Shown here: positions 1 to 36,544 of the stretch, piece after piece
Layout of the letters: each line of letters starts with the position of its first letter
Position numbering within the stretch: the stretch's first letter is position 1
NCBI GenBank assembly: GCA_016932035.1
Contig: JAFGDR010000030.1
Location: 1-40,427, forward strand
Origin: Candidatus Cloacimonadota bacterium
Lineage (GTDB): Bacteria > Cloacimonadota > Cloacimonadia > JGIOTU-2
Length of the DNA: 40,427 nucleotides
Direction of reading: 5' to 3'
Position numbers and translations under genes: made by a program
The notes under the pieces: model-generated
What the model was told of the DNA's origin: nothing
What the model saw: the letters and a program-made list of their open reading frames with translations, nothing else
Database searches by the model: none

Positions 1-562
1 GTTGCAGCTTGACACCAAATTGTAGTTTTGAAAGATAACTAAACAAAAATTAAAGGAACTAAAATGGTTGCAGCTTGACACCAAATTGTAGTTTTGAAAG
101 ATGTGCTTTTCTTGAAATATTCAATTTCCCCGGTTGCAGCTTGACACCAAATTGTAGTTTTGAAAGATAAAGAAAAATGGGATTTGAAGATGAAGTATGT
201 TGCAGCTTGACACCAAATTGTAGTTTTGAAAGATGAAGCATCGCAAGCGTATAGTAATTCTTATGTTGCAGCTTGACACCAAATTGTAGTTTTGAAAGAT
301 TACCGCTTTCTCTGTACGGTGTGGATCAGGTTGCAGCTTGACACCAAATTGTAGTTTTGAAAGATCGAAAAAAAACATATCAAAAACATGATCCGTTGCA
401 GCTTGACACCAAATTGTAGTTTTGAAAGATTTGATTGGCCATCAAACGGAGATAAAACTATGTTGCAGCTTGACACCAAATTGTAGTTTTGAAAGATTGA
501 ACATTGCGAGGTATTATGACGAAGGAGTTGCAGCTTGACACCAAATTGTAGTTTTGAAAGAT
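1..562 (+). CRISPR. Type II-C CRISPR array, nine repeats and eight spacers
   Basis: Nine 36-bp repeats begin at 1, 67, 133, 199, 265, 330, 395, 462 and 527. Every copy reads the same, starting GTTGCAGCTTGACACC and ending TTTTGAAAGAT. Eight spacers of 29-31 bp separate them and none resembles another. The first repeat sits exactly at the window edge, so the array may continue outside. Orientation is set by the tracrRNA anti-repeat at 5029-5050, which is complementary to the first part of the repeat read on the + strand; crRNAs are therefore made left to right, converging with the cas genes. No degenerate terminal repeat is seen at the right end. I found no spacer target by eye in the window. 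Confidence 0.98.
535..562 (+). promoter_or_regulatory. Promoter-like element inside each CRISPR repeat (ninth copy shown)
   Basis: Repeat bases 9-14 are a perfect TTGACA. After 16 bp, bases 31-36 read AAAGAT, ending at the repeat/spacer border. The same pair occurs in all nine repeats. Other likely promoters in this window also use TTGACA with 15-17 bp spacing. The -10 match is weak (3 of 6 to TATAAT). In Neisseria II-C systems, promoters embedded in repeats start crRNAs within each spacer. Here a start about 7 nt into the spacer would leave roughly 23 nt of guide. Function is inferred. Confidence 0.5.
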
Positions 563-603
563 AGCAGCTTTCTAATATGCCTTGCGCTTGTTAGTTAGCT
601 GCT
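563..603. other. Inverted repeat between array and cas2
   Basis: Directly after the last repeat, 563-575 (AGCAGCTTTCTAA) and 591-603 (TTAGTTAGCTGCT) can pair as 7 bp, a TT/TT internal loop and 4 bp, leaving a 15-nt loop. It sits between the convergent array and cas2 and could limit transcription from either side. No T-run follows on either strand, so it is not a standard intrinsic terminator. The remaining bases to 631 show no gene and no clear leader. Confidence 0.4.
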
Positions 604-631
604 ATTGCTACATTTAAAAGAGAGTGATTTC

Positions 632-961
632 TTAATCAAACAATAGGTACTGGCCTGTTTTATCGGGCATTTTTTCTTTTTTGCGGTTGCAGAAGTGTTC
701 AATCTTTCCGTATTGTTTATCAGTAAAACATAAGATACAAACATCACCACTTGGAGGAACGTGCTCTCTTATTTTATTCTTATATGAGTCCACCCGTTCA
801 CGAGTTCCGCAAAATCGCATATACACAGAATATTGACTCATGCTGAATCCCTCGTCCAATAAATAATTCCGGAATTTTGTTGCACGTTTTCTATCCACGT
901 CCTTTTTGACCGGCAGGTCAAACATTACAAGCATCCACATGAGTCTAAGTCCGCTTATCAT
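632..961 (-). CDS. cas2: CRISPR-associated endoribonuclease Cas2 (type II-C)
   Basis: This 109-residue protein is the Cas2 half of the spacer-integration complex. It has the family N-terminus, a beta strand ending in the metal-binding Asp (WMLVMFDLPV, D15), then FRNYLLDEGFSMSQYSVYMR, typical of type II Cas2, and a C-terminal GQYLLFD tail. I chose the ATG at 961 because type II-C relatives start a few residues before the RLMW motif; a TTG further up at 1012 adds residues relatives lack, and an ATG at 940 would cut into the first strand. The start overlaps the cas1 end by 17 bp, so translation is probably coupled. It is the last gene of cas9-cas1-cas2. Confidence 0.95.
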   Translation of the reverse strand: MISGLRLMWMLVMFDLPVKKDVDRKRATKFRNYLLDEGFSMSQYSVYMRFCGTRERVDSYKNKIREHVPPSGDVCILCFTDKQYGKIEHFCNRKKEKMPDKTGQYLLFD

Positions 962-1835
962 AAAACTCTGGAAATTGTATTGTGTTCTTTTTTTCTTTAA
1001 ATGACCGAACAAGAGAAATCACTGTTTGTTTCATGCAATGCTCAAGAGTTAATCTTTTGCCGTCCATGATGAATCGCTCGTTGCACAGATCAGCCAGCTC
1101 TTTTTTATGCAGTGGATTGAGTTCATCCTCATTCCCTACGTGCATGGTAAATATCTTCCTGTCAACAAACGGACGATACGGTTCTATAATATCATCCGCA
1201 AGGCAGTAGGGATTAAGTTTGTTATGATGATGTAATCCTATTGAGGGCAGCAATCCAAAGGCAATACAATACCGTATTGCGCAGCTTCTTATGATTGCAT
1301 ATCCAAAATTAAGAAATGCGTTTATACCCGGCTCATCAAAATCCCTATTAAAAGCTTTACCGAATACTCTTTTCCAATAGCGAACTGCTGCCTGCGCTTC
1401 GATATTATCAGGATCGCCTGATCGAACTTTTTCGATCAGTTTTGCAAAATCTTTTGCATAATCTCCATTATCCAACAACACACATCTCTGGTTTCGGATC
1501 TTTTTTTTAATGATCGTCTGCCATATACGTTTTTTAAGAGCTTCAGATGCATCGAGCTGAATATTCATCCTGCCGGTAAATTCATAGTTGGAACAGTGGG
1601 AAATAAGATACCCTACAGGAATATAATTCTTCCCGCATAGTATCAATGGAATATTCATCTCACATAACCGAACACAGAGATTGTGTGAATAGCGTATGCC
1701 GAATCCGCTGACGATGATCGCGTCTATGTCAGCAAGCGGTTCTTTTCTAACTTCTTCCCTTTTGCATTTAACAACAATAAAACCTCTACTAATACTCAGG
1801 AAGATGTCATTCGTTTTGATCTCTAGTATATTCAT
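945..1835 (-). CDS. cas1: CRISPR-associated endonuclease Cas1 (type II-C)
   Basis: Cas1 is the metal-dependent integrase that inserts new spacers, acting as dimers bridged by Cas2. The 296-residue protein has the N-terminal beta domain and a C-terminal helical domain with the expected metal ligands: E146 in DNIEAQAA, H203 in GLHHHNK and E218 in LADDIIEPYRPFVD. The ATG at 1835 gives the usual type II start (MNILEIKTND); a TTG at 1862 only adds nine residues. It starts inside the last 29 bp of cas9 and overlaps cas2 downstream, so all three are one unit. There is no cas4 or csn2, which fits subtype II-C. Confidence 0.96.
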   Translation of the reverse strand: MNILEIKTNDIFLSISRGFIVVKCKREEVRKEPLADIDAIIVSGFGIRYSHNLCVRLCEMNIPLILCGKNYIPVGYLISHCSNYEFTGRMNIQLDASEALKKRIWQTIIKKKIRNQRCVLLDNGDYAKDFAKLIEKVRSGDPDNIEAQAAVRYWKRVFGKAFNRDFDEPGINAFLNFGYAIIRSCAIRYCIAFGLLPSIGLHHHNKLNPYCLADDIIEPYRPFVDRKIFTMHVGNEDELNPLHKKELADLCNERFIMDGKRLTLEHCMKQTVISLVRSFKEKKNTIQFPEFYDKRT

Positions 1836-4800
1836 GTCTTCGTGGATCGGAAATATTCCCAAGAATATCTATTCCAACTTTCCTGGCATTCATATCTTGT
1901 AATTTTGTAGGTCTGAACTGTTCACCAATATCCTCTTTACCCTTTTCTTTTTTAGCCACATCTAGCTCTCTAAGATATACTATCTTACCTGTCATTTTTC
2001 TTACTCTTCTAATTATCCTAATCCCATCTTCTTCATAAGCAACATTATCATTAATGAACAGGCGCATGATCTTTTTTGCTGTCGGATATTTTTTATGCCA
2101 TTCGGGTTCAAAATCCTGTTGGTGGGCATAGAACATAGGAATAATTTCTATCTGCCATTTGCCTGCATCCTTTCCTTTATCGGGGCAGTAAATGTCTGCA
2201 CAATAATTATTACCGGAAAGGTAATATTTATAACTCTCTCCTTTGTCGTTTCTTATTGGAACGACTGTTTTTTTGTCCTTTTCCACATGTATTTTAACTC
2301 TCTTTGTTCCGGTTCTTTGTCTAAATTCTTCCAAGATGTTTTCAATTTTTTTATCTTTATTATTTTCAATTTCATTCAACAGAGTTTCTCTTATCCGATT
2401 ATCGGCGATCTCATTTATTTTCTTTATCGTGGTTAAATCACGAATAGGTTTGCGGACAGAAAGGGTTATCTTATCTTCGGTTTCGGATACAAGCCCGTAA
2501 GCGGTTTCATCATGAAGCTGCCCCACTGTTTGGTCATGCCTTATAGCTTCCTTCGCATTTCCATGATCCGGTTTATAAGATACAACAATATCATCTACTT
2601 GTTTTTGCATCCCATCGTGCGAAAATTCTTCATAGGGTGGTGGCATTTCTTCGATAAACCTATCCCTTGATTTTTCTGTTGCACGGGCAAATTTCTGTAG
2701 CATTGCTCTGTCCGTACACGCTACAATAAATCCATCGATGGCGTGGTGCCGGTTATCAGCACGGTTTTTTTCCGAATCATCAGAAAGCAGTTCGTTCAAT
2801 CCCCATTTTGCTCTGAACTTTGAAGTAAGTGCTCCCGGAATAGCCCACACATTATTTGGTCCGGATATATAACTCAAATATTCCTTTGCCATTCTGCTCA
2901 TATACTGGGTATCAGTAAGCAGTCGGGAAATTAATTCTCCTTGATCTTCGAAATTCTTCATTGCATCAGGAAAAAATCTCCATCGCTTTTTAGGTGGGAG
3001 CTTTTTACCTCTTTCTAGTATCTCATCCCAATTGTAATCTTCCGGACTGTTTCCAAATGCTTCATAAGGTGACCTTTCTCCTTTGAACTTGTTCGCAAGA
3101 TAGTATGAAACAGTTTTATTGAGAGGTCGGTCATCAAAGGTTTTGGATTTAGGAAGTATGTGTTCAATCTCAAATTTGTTTGTGAATAGTTCATTGATTG
3201 ATATTTGTTTTCCAGTATAAGGACAGCAGCGTTTTATCGGATCCGGGTTCAGTTCTTCCCAGAGTTTATATTTTAATCTGTTTTGATAAGTATTTTCAAT
3301 GCTTATTTTTTCAAGCTCTTCTGCTATTTCTTCATTATGCTTTCTGTTTTCTGCCTGGTCTCTATTTATTTCATCCAGACGTTTCTTGCCGAGCTTAAGC
3401 TCACGTGCCAGTTCAATCACGATCTGAGCTGGAGGTCCGTATTTTTTTACCAGTGCGTTGGTTAACTTTCTCAGTTGGTTGAGTGCAATATGAACAGTTG
3501 GATTTGCAATTTTTCCATAACGTATTTCATCTATATCATCTGGATCGTTTGTCCCAAACGAAACATGATGTGGCATAATTTTTCCATAGTAGGGTAGATT
3601 TCCCTCGTCATAAATTTCTCCAGTGCGAAAATCAGAATGATGATATCCTGCTCTTGCACAAGCATCTGAGTATATATAACCCTCTTTCAAATATGGAAGT
3701 AATTTATTGATGGCTTTCTTGCTGAGACTTCCTATGCCCTGTGGTAATCGGACATTTTTAATATTGTTTGCCTGTTCATTCGTAAGTCCAAAATTCTCTT
3801 GAAGCCATGTTGTCATTGTTTTTTCTATTTCGACATCATTATCTTCATTAATAATACGTCGTATGATTTCATCCTGTTGATCGTTTGAAAGTTTATCCCA
3901 CTGCTTTCCAAAACATTCTTCCTTTCTCATAATATGGGATGTTTCATCGCCTTTCAGGTCTTTTCGTTTCTCACTTTCAAGGTTAAATACATAGTCTTCT
4001 GGATCTTCTTTTAGTATTTTCTTTTTCAGACTTTTAAATGTTGAGGTTTTCTGTTTGAGAAGCGTTTTAATAATAATGTCCCTTTGCTCTTTTGTTAATT
4101 CGTGTTCTTTTCGCTCGAAATTCAATAAAATCAGATTATTCGCTTCCTGGTAAATTCTGAATTGCTGAAAAAGAGGATATGCAACAGGACACCTTGGTTC
4201 ATCCACCTCAAATCTGCATTTGCCTTTTTGTTGCGGCTGAAGCGGACGCTGAAAAAATATTATATCACGAAGGTGTTCTTTAATATCATCTGTCAACTCA
4301 TCGTGAAATCTGACCTGACTTTTCCAGATAAAATCGAATTCTTCCTTATACATCTCTCTTGAAGTATAAAAGTTATATGATTTTCCAAAGTCTCTTATTC
4401 TTACAGGTCGTTTCTTGTGATGTTCATTTTGGGGAATATCCTTATTCATATTGTATAAATATTCTCCAAGTGTTCGAGCGTTTTGGGCATCCAGTTTTTG
4501 TCGCAGTTCTTTGATGGCTTCTTTCAAACGGGAGGTTTCTTTTTCTGCACTATCTAGTTTCCTGTTGCTTTTGAACCCCCTGCGTTGATTGAGATGGAAA
4601 ATTATTCTACCGATCTCATATATCGTAACTTCTTCATCCAGAGCTTTTGCTCTTAGAAAATATGGATCAATGAGCTGAAGTTGTTTTCTTTTTTCTTCAT
4701 CTTCTTGTAGTAATCCATATTCTATCAAAGTATCCATGAGATATGCTCTTCTTTGCAAATATCTATCTCTGTTCCTTCTTGCACCGCGATGTTCTCGTCT

Positions 4801-4962
4801 CGTTACATTGAGTGGTTGACTTGTTTTTGCGTCTCTTCCATCCGGAAAAATCCTTACTCCAAGGTTAATAAGTCCAATCGGAAAATTGTCGTCATTTAGC
4901 TCTAGGATGCTCCATCCAAGTGAGGTAGCTCCAAGATCGATTCCAAGACGATATTTTTTCAT
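1807..4962 (-). CDS. cas9: Type II-C Cas9 RNA-guided DNA endonuclease, 1051 aa
   Basis: Cas9 cuts DNA matching a crRNA paired with tracrRNA. RuvC-I is at the N-terminus (GIDLGATS, D9), then the arginine-rich bridge helix at about 55-75. RuvC-II is IVIELAR with E517. The HNH domain spans about 575-635 with E600-H601 (FEIEHILPKS), N615 and N624. RuvC-III is NRHHAIDGF with H740 and D743. The remaining 300 residues would hold the PAM-interacting region. Length and the absence of csn2 and cas4 fit II-C. The HNH first acid is Glu instead of the common Asp, also seen in other II-C proteins as far as I recall. An AAAGGAG site precedes the ATG. All catalytic residues appear intact. The PAM cannot be read from sequence alone. 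Confidence 0.97.
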   Translation of the reverse strand: MKKYRLGIDLGATSLGWSILELNDDNFPIGLINLGVRIFPDGRDAKTSQPLNVTRREHRGARRNRDRYLQRRAYLMDTLIEYGLLQEDEEKRKQLQLIDPYFLRAKALDEEVTIYEIGRIIFHLNQRRGFKSNRKLDSAEKETSRLKEAIKELRQKLDAQNARTLGEYLYNMNKDIPQNEHHKKRPVRIRDFGKSYNFYTSREMYKEEFDFIWKSQVRFHDELTDDIKEHLRDIIFFQRPLQPQQKGKCRFEVDEPRCPVAYPLFQQFRIYQEANNLILLNFERKEHELTKEQRDIIIKTLLKQKTSTFKSLKKKILKEDPEDYVFNLESEKRKDLKGDETSHIMRKEECFGKQWDKLSNDQQDEIIRRIINEDNDVEIEKTMTTWLQENFGLTNEQANNIKNVRLPQGIGSLSKKAINKLLPYLKEGYIYSDACARAGYHHSDFRTGEIYDEGNLPYYGKIMPHHVSFGTNDPDDIDEIRYGKIANPTVHIALNQLRKLTNALVKKYGPPAQIVIELARELKLGKKRLDEINRDQAENRKHNEEIAEELEKISIENTYQNRLKYKLWEELNPDPIKRCCPYTGKQISINELFTNKFEIEHILPKSKTFDDRPLNKTVSYYLANKFKGERSPYEAFGNSPEDYNWDEILERGKKLPPKKRWRFFPDAMKNFEDQGELISRLLTDTQYMSRMAKEYLSYISGPNNVWAIPGALTSKFRAKWGLNELLSDDSEKNRADNRHHAIDGFIVACTDRAMLQKFARATEKSRDRFIEEMPPPYEEFSHDGMQKQVDDIVVSYKPDHGNAKEAIRHDQTVGQLHDETAYGLVSETEDKITLSVRKPIRDLTTIKKINEIADNRIRETLLNEIENNKDKKIENILEEFRQRTGTKRVKIHVEKDKKTVVPIRNDKGESYKYYLSGNNYCADIYCPDKGKDAGKWQIEIIPMFYAHQQDFEPEWHKKYPTAKKIMRLFINDNVAYEEDGIRIIRRVRKMTGKIVYLRELDVAKKEKGKEDIGEQFRPTKLQDMNARKVGIDILGNISDPRRHEYTRDQNE

Positions 4963-4991
4963 CTTGACTCCTTTTATTAAAATCCCTTTTT

Positions 4992-5019
4992 TTGGTTCCA
5001 GTTCTTTAACCTGTTAATT
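4992..5019 (+). promoter_or_regulatory. Candidate tracrRNA promoter
   Basis: TTGGTT at 4992-4997 and TTAATT at 5014-5019 are 16 bp apart. A start about 7 nt later (near 5026) would open the RNA at the anti-repeat. The elements are imperfect matches to the consensus. Confidence 0.45.
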
Positions 5020-5028
5020 AGTTTTAAA

Positions 5029-5050
5029 AATTTGGTGTCAAGCTGTTAAC
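5029..5050 (+). repeat. CRISPR anti-repeat within the tracrRNA gene
   Basis: An 18-base core (AATTTGGTGTCAAGCTG) matches the complement of repeat bases 5-21 without mismatch, and the last bases TTAAC pair with GTT after a bulge. It is a single copy and inverted relative to the array, so it is not a stray repeat. Confidence 0.93.
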
Positions 5051-5073
5051 AAGGTTTTATGAACCAACAAATG

Positions 5074-5104
5074 AAGGCACAGGCTCCGGCTTGTGCCTTT
5101 TCTT
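5074..5104 (+). terminator. Intrinsic terminator of the tracrRNA
   Basis: AAGGCACAGGC at 5074-5084 pairs with GCTTGTGCCTT at 5089-5099, with one G-T pair and a TCCG loop, then TTTCTTCTTT. In II-C systems the terminator hairpin is part of the mature tracrRNA. Confidence 0.92.
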
Positions 5105-5114
5105 CTTTAATTTA

Positions 5115-5171: not shown

Positions 5172-6071
5172 ATGTCAATCACACATCATCAATACTGCCC
5201 GGAAGATTTCTCTCGCGTCAGTGATTTCCTGATCGCTCATTATCTTACGGAAAACAGGGACGGCAACTGGCTGCAACCGGCATGGGAGTATATGCATACA
5301 CATCCATATCTTGATGAAGATTCTTTGGATAAGATCAGGATATGGCAAGAGAATGGAGAGATAGTTGCTGTAGTTCATTACGAGTCCCGGCTGGGAGAAG
5401 TATTTTTCCAGATTCATCCTGACTATACTGCGCTCAAGCCCGAAATGCTCGAGTATGCAGAGCGTTCATTGAAGGGTTCAACAAAAGAAGGCAAATCATA
5501 TCTGCATGTGTTTGAGAATGATTTTGATGACGCTCTCAACTCTCTCGTTACCTCAAAAGGGTATATGAGAATAAATGCGGAAGATCGTCCTCTTTCCATG
5601 CTGAGCATACCCGATCCTTTTCCTGAAATAACTGTTCCTAAAGGATTTGTCATAAAAAGTCTGGCTGACGACAATGACCTGTACAAGATCAATCGTGTGC
5701 TCTGGCGCGGATTCAATCATCCAGGAGAACCGCCTGAAGAAGATGAGGATATAGAAGAGAGAAAGAAAATGCAGTCCGGTCCCAACTTTCGCAAAGAACT
5801 TACGATTGTGGTCGAAGCACCATCTGGAGATTTCGTTTCCTTTGCGGGAACCTGGTTCGTACCTCAGAAAAAATATGTGTATGTCGAACCGGTCGCAACT
5901 GATCCGAATTTCCGAAGAATGGGGCTTGGAAGAGCAGCACTTCTTGAAAGCATCCGAAGGTGCAAGGAACTCGGCGCTGAGGTTGCTTATGTCGGCTCGG
6001 GGCAGAAGTTCTATCAGAAACTTGGATTCAAAAAAATCTTTACATCACAATGCTGGGAAAAAGTTTGGTGA
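5172..6071 (+). CDS. GNAT family N-acetyltransferase, probably two tandem domains
   Basis: A 299-residue protein. The C-terminal half is a clear GNAT fold: VATDPNFRRMGLGRAAL holds the acetyl-CoA pyrophosphate loop (R249-x-G251-x-G253), followed by the FYQKLGFKKI strand common to the family. The N-terminal half (about 1-140) resembles a second, degenerate GNAT domain without that loop. The substrate cannot be told; relatives acetylate small amines or antibiotics. AGAGG lies upstream of the ATG. It is the first gene of an operon with the DoxX-like gene 19 bp later. Confidence 0.85.
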   Translation: MSITHHQYCPEDFSRVSDFLIAHYLTENRDGNWLQPAWEYMHTHPYLDEDSLDKIRIWQENGEIVAVVHYESRLGEVFFQIHPDYTALKPEMLEYAERSLKGSTKEGKSYLHVFENDFDDALNSLVTSKGYMRINAEDRPLSMLSIPDPFPEITVPKGFVIKSLADDNDLYKINRVLWRGFNHPGEPPEEDEDIEERKKMQSGPNFRKELTIVVEAPSGDFVSFAGTWFVPQKKYVYVEPVATDPNFRRMGLGRAALLESIRRCKELGAEVAYVGSGQKFYQKLGFKKIFTSQCWEKVW

Positions 6072-7351: not shown

Positions 7352-7419
7352 AGATTTATTGACGTTGAAACGCTAAATTTCTCTTTTTTTGTTACCCTAA
7401 TCACAGATTGGCAGGTATA

Positions 7420-9156
7420 ATGAAGCCACGTATTATTATTTTTTTATTATGTATCGTTGTTTTCTTCTTTGCAGCGTTCCTGACTCAGGCTTCAGAAATA
7501 CCAGCAGTTCACAAGCCGCCAATTGTATCGCGGGATTCAATAATTGAGAAGGTCAAAGATCCTCCACCCGGTTATGAAACAGTGAATCCTGCTGAGTTCG
7601 GCAGATCGGACGGTGTCATTCTGGCGTGGCCCGGATGGGGAAATGAGATCATCGGTGACATCGCATATGCTGTTGCCGATGATTATAAAGTGTATATGGT
7701 CGTGGCGAATTCATATTATGAGGGCATCGCGACCACGTATCTTTCCTCAGTGGGGGTTAATATGCCTAACGTCAACTTCATTCATGATGCAACAATGAAC
7801 AATATGGGGATGTGGATTCGGGACTATGGACCCTTCTGCATTCATGATGAAGGAGCGTTCGCGATCGATGATTTGATCTGGAGCGGCAACTATGGCATCG
7901 ACCTAATCCCTTATACCATCGCAGATTTCTTCTCTTTGCCCATTTATCACAGCAACCTGATCCATCATGGCGGAAACCATTTGACCGACGGCAACGGCAT
8001 GGGATTTTTTTCTACAAACATTTACAACCATAATGGGGGTTATACCCAAAACCAGATAAAGCAAGAGTTCAAAGCCTTCTTCGGCATAGACTCAATGGTC
8101 GTCTTCGCACCGATGAACGGTGACGGAACCGGGCATGTGGATATGTTTTGCAAGCTGTTAAATGACACGCTTTTCATCGTGGGTGAATATGAAAATCCTG
8201 GTGCAAGCTACCCAGGTGATTATGAACTTCTGAATAATCTTGCAGACTATCTTGGAACGCTCTCTAGTCTTGATGGAAGGCAGTTTCGGGTCGAGAGAAT
8301 TCCAATGCCCCCGTATTATTACGGAGGACCTGCCGGAACGATCAATTATACCTATACAAATTCGCTTATCATAAATGACAAGGGGCTTGTTCCGTTGTAT
8401 GGTTTTGATTCCGACGCTGAAGCCCTGCAGGTTTATGCAGACTGCATGCCGTATCATGAAATCATTCCCATAGATTCGGAGTTCATCATCCAATATTGGG
8501 GCGCTGTTCACTGTATTACCAATGAGCTTTTCAGCACAAATCCCTTGATCGTACTGCATGATCCACTGAAGGCATATACTTCGGGAACAAACCCGCAGAT
8601 AAAATTCAGGTTGAATCCGAAATTCTTACAGTCCGGAGCATCAGTTTCCTATAGATGCATATCTTCTCCTAACTATACGGAAATTCCCGCACTGCTTAAG
8701 AATGGAGTGTGGTCCGCAACACTCCCCGCTTTGACCGAAGATTTTTCCTACTACATTTCGGGAACCGCAACAACAGGAGATATTGTATTCAATACCTCTC
8801 TACCTGAGGATGCTCCGTCAGAAGTTTTTTGGGTTGATGCCCTGAATGTTGGCACAGATGATGAAGCAGGAATATACACAATCCAATTAACTAATTATCC
8901 AAATCCTTTTAAAGACGATATATCCATCTCTTTTTCGGCGCCTTTTGCCGCACGATCTGCTTACATTAAACTATTTAACGTCAAGGGTCAGGTTGTGAGA
9001 AGCTATAGTATCACCAACCAGCCAACACATACAGCTGAGATTAAATGGGATGGAAAAGATGATCGAGGACGGTCGGTTGAGAGTGGTACTTACTTCTGCA
9101 GCGTAGTTCTCGATGGCAAACCGGTGCTGACCGGTAGAATTATAAAGATTCAATAG
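7420..9156 (+). CDS. Secreted guanidine deiminase (PAD_porph / agmatine deiminase family) with T9SS sorting domain
   Basis: A 578-residue exported enzyme that should hydrolyse a guanidino group to a ureido group and ammonia. A signal peptide covers 1-25. Catalytic residues of the family are in order: D135 in WIRDYGP, HHGGNH at 182-187, H239 and D241 in GTGHVDMF, N314 in YTNSLI and the nucleophile C365 in GAVHCITNEL. An immunoglobulin-like stretch follows at about 390-480, and the last 80 residues form a type A T9SS sorting domain starting NYPNPF and ending GRIIKIQ. Porphyromonas gingivalis PPAD has the same arrangement. Whether the substrate is a peptide arginine, free agmatine or another guanidine is open. 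The start is the ATG at 7420, not the TTG at 7408. Confidence 0.85.
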   Translation: MKPRIIIFLLCIVVFFFAAFLTQASEIPAVHKPPIVSRDSIIEKVKDPPPGYETVNPAEFGRSDGVILAWPGWGNEIIGDIAYAVADDYKVYMVVANSYYEGIATTYLSSVGVNMPNVNFIHDATMNNMGMWIRDYGPFCIHDEGAFAIDDLIWSGNYGIDLIPYTIADFFSLPIYHSNLIHHGGNHLTDGNGMGFFSTNIYNHNGGYTQNQIKQEFKAFFGIDSMVVFAPMNGDGTGHVDMFCKLLNDTLFIVGEYENPGASYPGDYELLNNLADYLGTLSSLDGRQFRVERIPMPPYYYGGPAGTINYTYTNSLIINDKGLVPLYGFDSDAEALQVYADCMPYHEIIPIDSEFIIQYWGAVHCITNELFSTNPLIVLHDPLKAYTSGTNPQIKFRLNPKFLQSGASVSYRCISSPNYTEIPALLKNGVWSATLPALTEDFSYYISGTATTGDIVFNTSLPEDAPSEVFWVDALNVGTDDEAGIYTIQLTNYPNPFKDDISISFSAPFAARSAYIKLFNVKGQVVRSYSITNQPTHTAEIKWDGKDDRGRSVESGTYFCSVVLDGKPVLTGRIIKIQ

Positions 9157-25815: not shown

Positions 25816-26894
25816 TATTCCTCTAATGAGTCTGAAATCTTACCTTTTTTGATCAGGCTGCGAATCGAAACATAGGTATTTATACCGCGGTTCATCACGT
25901 TATACCAGAATGGTTTGTACACATGATCGTGCATGCCGATGAATTTCTTGAATTCACCACCAAATCCTTTCTTAAAACGATACACCCCAAAGAGCGGATG
26001 TCCCTCTTTTGGATGAGCTGGTACTCCCCAGAGGTCATAGGTTTTGTATCCCTGTTCCTTTGCCCATTGTATCACATGCCAGTGCAGCGCCTGGTTTGGC
26101 ATCACGTTGCGATATTCGTTCGAAGATGCCCCATACATATACCAGATCTTTTCACCAAAGGCAAAAATATACACACCCGCAACGGGGATATCGTCATAAT
26201 ATGCCAGGAATAATTTCACCATCCCCTTATGGGCCATTAACTCTATTACCTGTTTATAGTATTCCTCGTTATGAATAATAAAAGCATCGCGTTTTGCCGT
26301 TGTTTCGTAAATATCATAAAAAATTCGTGCACCTTCCAACGATGTATTTTCTCTGACCTTAACACCTTTCTTCATTGAAAGACGGATATTATACCTGGTT
26401 TTCGACTCGCAACCGGCCATGATGTCATCGAGAGATTGTGTCAGGTCGAGAAAAAAGGTTGCCCGTGGCTGGATTTGCTTCATGGCAAAAGTGAAATTGT
26501 GCTCGTTTAACACCCTCAATGACTTTTCATCATTCTCATCGATCTCAGGATCGATCTTCAAGAGAATAGCATTATGATTTTTTGCGATCTCGGAGATTGT
26601 ATTCATCAAAACTGTAAAATAATAACTCGTTACATCAATAACCGGACCTCGCGGTGCATAGAAAAGACATTTTCCAATATAGGGAATATTCCGCTTCTGA
26701 ATAGAGATTCCGCCAACGATCTTGTCATCATCAAAAACAGCAATCCGAATCGGTATCCATCCGGATATTCGCTTGAATTTTCCCCATTCATAGGACTGTA
26801 TTATCGGGCATTCCTGGGTCGATGCCACGAACTCATTCCATGTGGAAAATTCTTCTTCTGTTTCCAAAATTCTACATTCGATCTTGCTATTCAT
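25815..26894 (-). CDS. FemAB-family peptidyltransferase (FemX-like)
   Basis: A 359-residue protein with two GNAT-like halves, the fold of Fem transferases that use aminoacyl-tRNA to add a branch amino acid to lipid II. Typical segments are IIQSYEWGKFKRISGW (32-47), FYAPRGPVID, QPRATFFLDL, CESKTRYNIRLSMKKGV and WYMYGASSNEYRNVMPNQALHWHVIQWAKEQGYKTYDLWGVP. There is no obvious long coiled-coil arm. The donor amino acid cannot be told. It is the first gene of the operon femX-murE-acpS-tdh-kbl. Only a weak ribosome site is visible. Confidence 0.88.
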   Translation of the reverse strand: MNSKIECRILETEEEFSTWNEFVASTQECPIIQSYEWGKFKRISGWIPIRIAVFDDDKIVGGISIQKRNIPYIGKCLFYAPRGPVIDVTSYYFTVLMNTISEIAKNHNAILLKIDPEIDENDEKSLRVLNEHNFTFAMKQIQPRATFFLDLTQSLDDIMAGCESKTRYNIRLSMKKGVKVRENTSLEGARIFYDIYETTAKRDAFIIHNEEYYKQVIELMAHKGMVKLFLAYYDDIPVAGVYIFAFGEKIWYMYGASSNEYRNVMPNQALHWHVIQWAKEQGYKTYDLWGVPAHPKEGHPLFGVYRFKKGFGGEFKKFIGMHDHVYKPFWYNVMNRGINTYVSIRSLIKKGKISDSLEE

Positions 26895-32898: not shown

Positions 32899-32925
32899 GT
32901 TCTTGTGTGAGTGCCCGGAGACTTT

Positions 32926-34668
32926 ATGAAAACGATAAGTGAATTTATTGAAGAACTAAAACAGCGTGGGGATGAGCGGGGTTTTATCACCTATGATGAA
33001 ATAAATCAGCTTCTTCCTGATAATCCTATTTTTTTGGATAAGATCGATGACATCTTTAATGAATTAAAAGATGCCGGGCTTGAGATCCTCGACGAGACAA
33101 TGAAGGGCGGGATCCGCAAGAAGAAACGTACCCCAAAGCCCAAAAAAGCATCGGTTAAGATAAGCTTTTATGACGATCCTGTCCGCATGTATCTAAAGGA
33201 TATGGGAAAAGTGCCGCTGCTCACTCCTGAGGATGAAGCAAAGATATCCAAAAGGATTGAAGATGCACAGACAACGATCAATAAACTGACACTCAATTGT
33301 GGAAGCAGTCTCCGTGAATTCCAGAATGTTATCAAACGTTATAGGGAAGGGAAGATCAAAATAGACCAGATCCTGAAAATAGAATTTGGCAGCTGGTTCG
33401 ATAAAGAAAATAACGAACGCCTTATCTCCCTGCTGGATGAGCGAACAAAAAAAGCTCTTGATCACTCTGATGAGATTGAAAAAATAATCAATAAAAAACC
33501 CTCAAAAAGATACAGCAAGACCCAAACTGTCGGTGAAAAAATAAAAGAGAACCGCGCACACATCATGGAGCTTTTTGAGGAGATGTGCTTCACCGACATG
33601 ATGATCCAGCGTCTCATTTACAGAATAAACAGTTTGCTTGGTCGTATAAATGTCAGTCTCAATCGTATCTACGCTGTGAGTAATATTAAGGGCTATAGCA
33701 CAGCAAAAATATGCACACTCGGCAGGAAAGCCGAAAAAGGCAAAGAAGATTTCAATGAAGTTGCCGAACTCACTGGTCTTGATCCGCATATTTTTATGGA
33801 TGCCCTGAGAAAGATCAAAAACAACCGGAGAAAGATTCGAAGGGTCGAGCTCGAAACACGTATGACTGCCGATGAGCTCAAACGTCTGATGGAGGATATC
33901 CGCAAAGCACAGGATCAGAAAGAGCAAGCAAAGAATGATATCATAAAGGCAAATGTCCGTCTTGTTATCAGTATTGCCAAGAAATATAACAATCGCGGGC
34001 TCAGCTTCCTCGACCTGATCCAGGAAGGCAATATCGGGCTTATCCGTGCTGTTGAAAAATATGATTATCACAAGGGATATAAATTCTCAACCTATGCCAC
34101 CTGGTGGATTCGCCAGACTATCACAAAAGGTATTGCTGATCAGTCACGGACAATTCGCGTTCCTGTTCATATGGCAGAAGCCATTAATAAAGTGAATCGG
34201 GCTCATAACAAACTTGTGCAGGCACTCGGCAGAGAGCCCTATCCAGAGGAAATCGCACAGGAACTCGATCTTCCGGTCGAAAAAGTGAAGGGCATCATGA
34301 ATGTCTCGAAACGACCTGTTTCTCTCGATAAACCTGTCGGTGATGAGGATGGCGATACCACATTAAGTGATTTCATCGAAGACGATAATATGATCTCGCC
34401 TGAGAAAATCGCAGAAAGAACACTCCTGCGCAAACAGGTTGAGGCTGTCCTTTCAACACTTACAAAACGAGAGCGTCGTGTGATCAAATTGCGCTTTGGC
34501 ATCGGTGACCAGACTCCCCGAACCCTTGAAGAGGTTGGTCATATCTTTGATATCACTCGTGAGCGTGTTCGACAAATCGAAGAAAAAGCCAAAGAAAAAC
34601 TTCGCCATCACAGCAGGGCCAATATCCTCAAAAAATATATGGATACATTTGAGGAATTTAATCGATAA
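32926..34668 (+). CDS. rpoD: Primary RNA polymerase sigma factor, RpoD
   Basis: A 580-residue sigma-70. Region 1.1 is at 1-60, region 1.2 at about 85-115 ([25 protein letters not shown]), then a large nonconserved region. Region 2 has [39 protein letters not shown] and [27 protein letters not shown], and region 4 has [30 protein letters not shown] for -35 recognition. Having region 1.1 sets it apart from the short Bacteroidetes RpoD and agrees with the TTGACA boxes here. The start is the ATG at 32926 with GGAG five bases upstream; a GTG at 32911 is possible. Confidence 0.97.
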
Positions 34669-35440: not shown

Positions 35441-36544
35441 ATGTTTAAAACTGGGAAAAAATTAGTGCTTTTGGGGATTATCCTGCTGCTGATTCCCCTG
35501 TCTGTCAAGGCACAAAACTACCTGGATATGCCAGAAGGAATCTCTTATGACAGCGGTTCAAAGAGCTATTATGTATCCTGTTGGAATCCTGCATGTGTCG
35601 TAAAGATCGATAGTCTCGGCAATCAGAGTGTTTTTAAGTCCGGGCTAACTGCCTGTGCAAATAATGTCCTTGTGGATTCGATCCTGTATGTGTCCTATCG
35701 ATATGGAGTAAAGGCGTTCAACATCAAAACCGGAGTACAGGTTCTATATAAGCCCATAAGTGCTACGAATTACTTTGATGGCATCGCATATCATGCAGGT
35801 TATCTTTATCTAATCAATCACGGGCAGAAACTCTATAAGATAAATCTTACAGATAACACCCATGAATTGTTAACAAGCACCGGACTCGGCTCCTATCCAC
35901 AGGGACTTATTTATGACGAGGTTAACGACAGGCTCTTAACGTGCTCGTTCCAGAACAGCGCTCCCATCGTGCAGATCAATCCTCAGAACGGGCAGACATC
36001 CTATGCCTTGTGGACTGGTCTAAATAATCTCGATGCTTTAGCGCAGGATCAATACGGCAATATCTATGTAACGTGCAATGGAACTAATTCTGTGTATCGA
36101 TATGATTCAAATCTGGAGAATCGCATCGTTGTTTCATCGGGCCATAGCGGTCCTTCAGGTCTTGAATACAATCGTGACGATAATATCCTTGCAATCTCTA
36201 ACTTCTTTACTGATGTGGTAGATTTTGTGTCAATGGCACCCTATTCAATTGATGATCCTATAGAAGAGGGATTACGGCTACATCAGAATTTTCCAAATCC
36301 TTTCAGCCACTCCACAACCCTCAGGTTTGCTCTTATGAAACCGTCAAATATCGTTCTCTCCTTATATGATGCTCGAGGTAGATTTATCACAACACTTCTT
36401 GATGACCACTATCAATCAGGATTCCATGATTTTTCTCTTGATATTCACTGTTGTTCACAACCAGAACTCCCGTCTGGAATATATTTTATTCATCTTAAAA
36501 ACAATGACCTGGAGCTGATGAGAGAAATTACGCTTATTCGTTAG
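35441..36544 (+). CDS. Secreted beta-propeller protein with T9SS sorting domain
   Basis: A 367-residue exported protein. A signal peptide at 1-25 ends VKAQ. Repeats around 30-265 such as EGISYDSGSKSYYVSCW, PQGLIYDEVNDRLLTCSF and LDALAQDQYGNIYVTCNG fit an NHL or SMP-30-like propeller. The C-terminal 80 residues start LHQNFPNPFSHSTTLRFAL and end EITLIR, a type A T9SS sorting domain that would carry it to the surface. The ligand is unknown. GGAGG precedes the ATG. It follows the TetR gene by 22 bp. Confidence 0.85.
   Translation: MFKTGKKLVLLGIILLLIPLSVKAQNYLDMPEGISYDSGSKSYYVSCWNPACVVKIDSLGNQSVFKSGLTACANNVLVDSILYVSYRYGVKAFNIKTGVQVLYKPISATNYFDGIAYHAGYLYLINHGQKLYKINLTDNTHELLTSTGLGSYPQGLIYDEVNDRLLTCSFQNSAPIVQINPQNGQTSYALWTGLNNLDALAQDQYGNIYVTCNGTNSVYRYDSNLENRIVVSSGHSGPSGLEYNRDDNILAISNFFTDVVDFVSMAPYSIDDPIEEGLRLHQNFPNPFSHSTTLRFALMKPSNIVLSLYDARGRFITTLLDDHYQSGFHDFSLDIHCCSQPELPSGIYFIHLKNNDLELMREITLIR

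Follow-up and report, generated by a model that had tools for sequence, protein, structure and literature searches.

The window analysed here is an entire contig of 40,427 nt from a Cloacimonadota assembly (2.44 Mb, 95% complete), whose host genome belongs to the same genus as Ca. Celaenobacter, in agreement with the uncultured FCB-group lineage that the original prediction had named. At its beginning lies a type II-C CRISPR-Cas locus in the order array (1-562), cas2, cas1, cas9 and divergent tracrRNA gene (5027-5105), with no gene besides cas1 and cas2 between cas9 and the array. The cas operon is minimal, comprising cas9-cas1-cas2 without csn2 or cas4, and the far side of the array falls beyond the contig. 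The features are as follows:

1..562, plus strand (crRNA strand): CRISPR array; 36-nt repeat GTTGCAGCTTGACACCAAATTGTAGTTTTGAAAGAT in nine identical copies, eight spacers of 29-31 nt
9..36 in repeat 1, recurring in every repeat, plus strand: embedded promoter-like elements, by consensus match
527..603, plus strand: cas2-side terminal repeat and adjoining imperfect inverted repeat AGCAGCT ... AGCTGCT (563-603)
632..961, minus strand: cas2, 109 aa, ATG at 961; TIGR01573, E 5e-19; PF09827
945..1835, minus strand: cas1, type II, 296 aa, ATG at 1835; TIGR03639, E 6e-74
1807..4962, minus strand: cas9 (II-C), 1051 aa; RuvC D9, E517, H740, D743; HNH E600, H601, N615
~5027..5105, plus strand: tracrRNA gene, divergent from cas9; antirepeat 5029-5045, nexus-like stem ~5053-5065, terminator hairpin 5073-5100
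5172-6071: GNAT acetyltransferase gene, next beyond the tracrRNA and unrelated to the CRISPR locus

Family matches, open and overlapping genes and retained catalytic residues uphold the earlier assignment to type II-C with a compact Cas9 and intact genes. The stop codon of cas9 (1807-1809) lies inside cas1 and that of cas1 (945-947) inside cas2, and both adaptation frames are open, so that Cas1 and Cas2 are indeed overlapping and intact; in alignment, the conserved E, H and E of motifs IEA, LHHHN and IEPYRP are all present in Cas1, and Cas2 carries its FDLP motif. Cas9 matches NCBIfam TIGR01865 with an E value of 3e-205, its predicted length of 1051 residues is confirmed, and the six RuvC and HNH residues previously singled out (D9, E517, H601, N615, H740 and D743) are both in place and invariant in 40/40 aligned Cas9 proteins. 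Residue 600 (window ~3163-3165, minus strand), immediately preceding the HNH histidine, is Glu in 25/40 and Asp in 15/40 of these proteins, and is thus variable within the family. An AlphaFold2 model of Cas9 (mean pLDDT 83, pTM 0.69) has as its best fold match by TM-score Nme1Cas9 (TM 0.73, 23% identity), with ThermoCas9 as the other top match (TM 0.69). Both are II-C proteins, and the best solved Cas9 structures are 22-24% identical to the window protein, which is therefore not a near copy of a characterised ortholog. The Neisseria meningitidis II-C system (Nme1Cas9, PDB 6jdv) shares the three-gene operon, the array opposite to cas and the compact Cas9, but structure-based identity is ~23% and its repeat and tracrRNA are different.

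Closer relatives of the protein are found within the phylum. The closest Cas9 found is that of Ca. Celaenobacter antarcticus (JAVCDK010000108.1), at 70-71% identity, followed by Ca. Tenebribacter burtonii and two other Cloacimonadota (59-61%), Ca. Zophobacter (52-53%), other Cloacimonadota (42-44%), and Alphaproteobacteria and others (30-49%). A tree was built with FastTree from 47 Cas9 proteins, a sample of II-C-like relatives with few reference proteins. All eight Cloacimonadota rows group there in a single supported clade (98) adjoining Alpha- and Gammaproteobacteria II-C proteins, and the window Cas9 pairs with that of Celaenobacter (100). EHCas9, a metagenomic II-C Cas9 of clade IX with 1070 aa, nearest relatives in Alphaproteobacteria and an NGG PAM (PMC10281378), can be likened to the window protein by description, as Alphaproteobacteria figure strongly among the window protein's own relatives too. 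In related loci the genes stand in the same order and the array again follows cas2. The II-C locus of Ca. Celaenobacter antarcticus (L028/L034) shares the cas9-cas1-cas2-array order, the array strand and the tracrRNA structure, its Cas1 and Cas2 being 66% and 70% identical to those of the window, but differs in its spacers and in its repeat, GTTACAGCTTGACACCAAAACATGATTTTCTAAATT, which has a better -10 element; its cas-distal last repeat carries 4 mismatches. Such loci are patchily distributed, given that matches to the window Cas9 occur in 13/125 genomes of the phylum and that Cas9 is present in just 2/17 genomes of the family, the latter figure indicating that loss or transfer is frequent.

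The tracrRNA gene establishes the strand of the array. Its antirepeat is the complement of the repeat at 17/17 positions, with a tracrRNA-repeat duplex predicted at -32.4 kcal/mol, and because the pairing is with the 5' portion of the repeat as written on the plus strand, the crRNA strand is the plus strand, opposite to the cas genes. Transcription of II-C arrays opposite to the cas operon has been published (PMC3936727). The short stem and terminator hairpin of the tracrRNA are kept in ten related loci, and 9/13 consensus tracrRNA pairs show compensatory changes among 10 loci. Where the original prediction saw a tracrRNA gene with both promoter and terminator, the gene and the terminator hairpin (12 pairs, followed by a T-rich tail) stand; the promoter is not borne out, with sigma-70-like matches in the region near the shuffle level (24 versus 17.0 +/- 3.9 by shuffling) and none of them well placed.

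The locus had also been called complete with identical repeats, a description that holds for the repeats, of which there are nine perfect copies, and fails for the array as a whole. The first base of the contig coincides with base 1 of a repeat, and the assembly contains no further repeat copies (<=3 mismatches) outside this array; the cas-distal end of the array is thus missing, the assembly having evidently broken inside the array.

Each repeat carries a -35-like element, TTGACA, at positions 9-14, a 16-nt gap and a weak -10-like element, AAAGAT, at positions 31-36. Scored at the same positions across 39 repeats (that of the window and 38 others), the -35/-10 fit averages 8.36/12, compared with 3.24 for shuffled repeats (1000 shuffles, maximum 4.13). 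TTGACA occupies the -35 position in nearly all Cloacimonadota repeats compared, whereas the -10 of the window is weaker than in most relatives, the near relatives having TAAATT or TAAAGT at positions 31-36. From this pattern we infer that the elements act as promoters. Beside the weak -10, positions 23-36 of the window repeat read TAGTTTTG (TAnnTTTG), and the embedded promoter may have shifted in this lineage. A Bacteroidetes-type promoter inside the repeat (TTG-N18-TAGTTTTG) was considered and rejected. The motif is missing in relatives, and the primary sigma factor encoded in the window (32911-34668) has region 1.1 alongside regions 1.2-4, a point in favour of ordinary sigma-70-type promoters in this lineage; on both grounds we prefer the TTGACA/-10 reading.

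The repeats also bear on the direction in which the array grows. Among relatives, the repeats on the cas2 side are perfect without exception, and a terminator-like hairpin often adjoins them; degenerate repeats, found in about half of 21 relatives, are confined to the cas-distal end, the very end that is missing in the window. The combination of solely cas-distal degeneracy and promoters within repeats points to entry of spacers at the cas2 side. Published II-C systems behave likewise, acquiring spacers via the last repeat and having every repeat equipped with a promoter (PMC12080349), or acquiring them at the 3' end, again with promoters in the repeats (PMC12638026), and the mutated first repeat published for II-C fits the degenerate cas-distal repeats seen in relatives. 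The terminal repeat and inverted repeat at 527..603 would then mark both the acquisition end and the end of array transcription, and with intact Cas1 and Cas2 and uniform repeats the predicted capacity to acquire spacers is plausible.

In the mechanism proposed here, Cas1 and Cas2 most likely insert new spacers at the repeat nearest cas2, where the array has its 3' end when read in the direction of the crRNA. Each repeat most likely provides its own promoter, yielding short crRNAs whose 5' ends would fall a few nucleotides inside each spacer, leaving ~23-24 nt of guide. Such a crRNA would use the 5' half of the repeat that follows to pair with the tracrRNA, and Cas9 with this dual RNA would be expected to cut DNA beside a PAM lying 3' of the protospacer.

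Searches for the targets of the array returned little. IMG/VR was scanned for patterns of 17-19 nt taken from spacers 2, 3, 4, 5, 7 and 8, and no convincing protospacer was found: identity beyond the exact pattern was at chance in the 61 matches (means 0.23-0.34), and the lone match of spacer 2 agreed at 6/11 positions outside it. Comparison of the array with phage and plasmid collections gave noise only, and across 125 genomes of the phylum spacers 5 and 7 matched (<=3 mismatches) nothing but the array itself. One candidate for spacer 2, in L176 (25/30 matches, 3' flank CCGAGTTT), was set aside; the match is within chance and the PAM-proximal base differs, so that no PAM was taken from it. 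According to PMC9433092, closely related II-C orthologs recognise diverse PAMs, and on that account guessing the PAM from relatives would be unsafe. With no credible protospacer, the searches speak neither for nor against the undescribed PAM suggested at the outset for this Cas9; that the compact II-C Cas9 branch of Cloacimonadota recognises a PAM described for no characterised ortholog we consider rather doubtful.

We hold with high confidence that this Cloacimonadota genome carries an adaptive immune locus of CRISPR-Cas9 subtype II-C, and that the locus is probably active. Against such activity one must set the weak AAAGAT -10, the truncated array, the want of a credible spacer target and the patchy presence in the family, and three of these (the degraded -10, the failure to find a protospacer for any spacer searched and the patchiness) would also suit a II-C system in decay that has lost both spacer acquisition and interference. 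Decay seems very improbable, however, when all three genes are open and overlapping with their catalytic residues intact, the nine repeats do not differ from one another and relatives share the tracrRNA; Cloacimonadota viruses, moreover, are probably poorly sampled, in which case missing targets are to be expected. Less probable again, to the point of being hardly credible, is a virus- or plasmid-borne locus caught on the contig. II-C cas9 relatives do occur on some plasmids and on two IMG/VR contigs, but the virus contig whose cas9 is closest to that of the window turned out to be a Mu-like phage integrated into a cas9 of host origin, and the window itself encodes chromosomal genes, among them DNA primase, a primary sigma factor, a Mur ligase, a MutS family protein and tRNAs.

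Read as a probably active chromosomal system, the locus is an ordinary II-C of known mechanism. Nothing suggests unusual biology, because the distinctive traits found, namely repeat promoters, cas2-side (3') acquisition and degenerate cas-distal repeats, are published traits of II-C. Its interest lies rather in where it occurs: no Cas9 studies of the phylum Cloacimonadota were found in the open-access literature, and the window adds an intact II-C Cas9 from this little-studied group, in which the published II-C rules of one promoter per repeat and growth at the 3' end are seen to fit in another phylum. The Cloacimonadota clade offers a source of proteins for measuring PAMs and for guide RNA design, and the practical value hinges wholly on PAM and activity.

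A phage was also noticed at a related locus, L114. At L114 5800-6010 (IMGVR_UViG_3300022664_000409, ~26150-26360), a Mu-like transposable phage, with genes for a MuA-type transposase, a MuB/TniB-like ATPase and an S24-type repressor, ends inside a Cloacimonadota-like II-C cas9. The cas9 frame resumes at about codon 20, its first 19 codons gone, and is followed by cas1, cas2 and a five-spacer array; the missing start was not found elsewhere on the contig, and this cas9 appears to have been disrupted when the phage inserted. The 82 Cloacimonadota spacers from ten related arrays included none that matched the Mu-like phage.

Elsewhere in the window, at 7408-9156 and 35441-36544, are two proteins with C-terminal T9SS-type sorting domains, the second of which (35441-36544) matches Por_Secre_tail slightly under the Pfam cut-off; one of the two is an agmatine/peptidyl-arginine deiminase-like enzyme.
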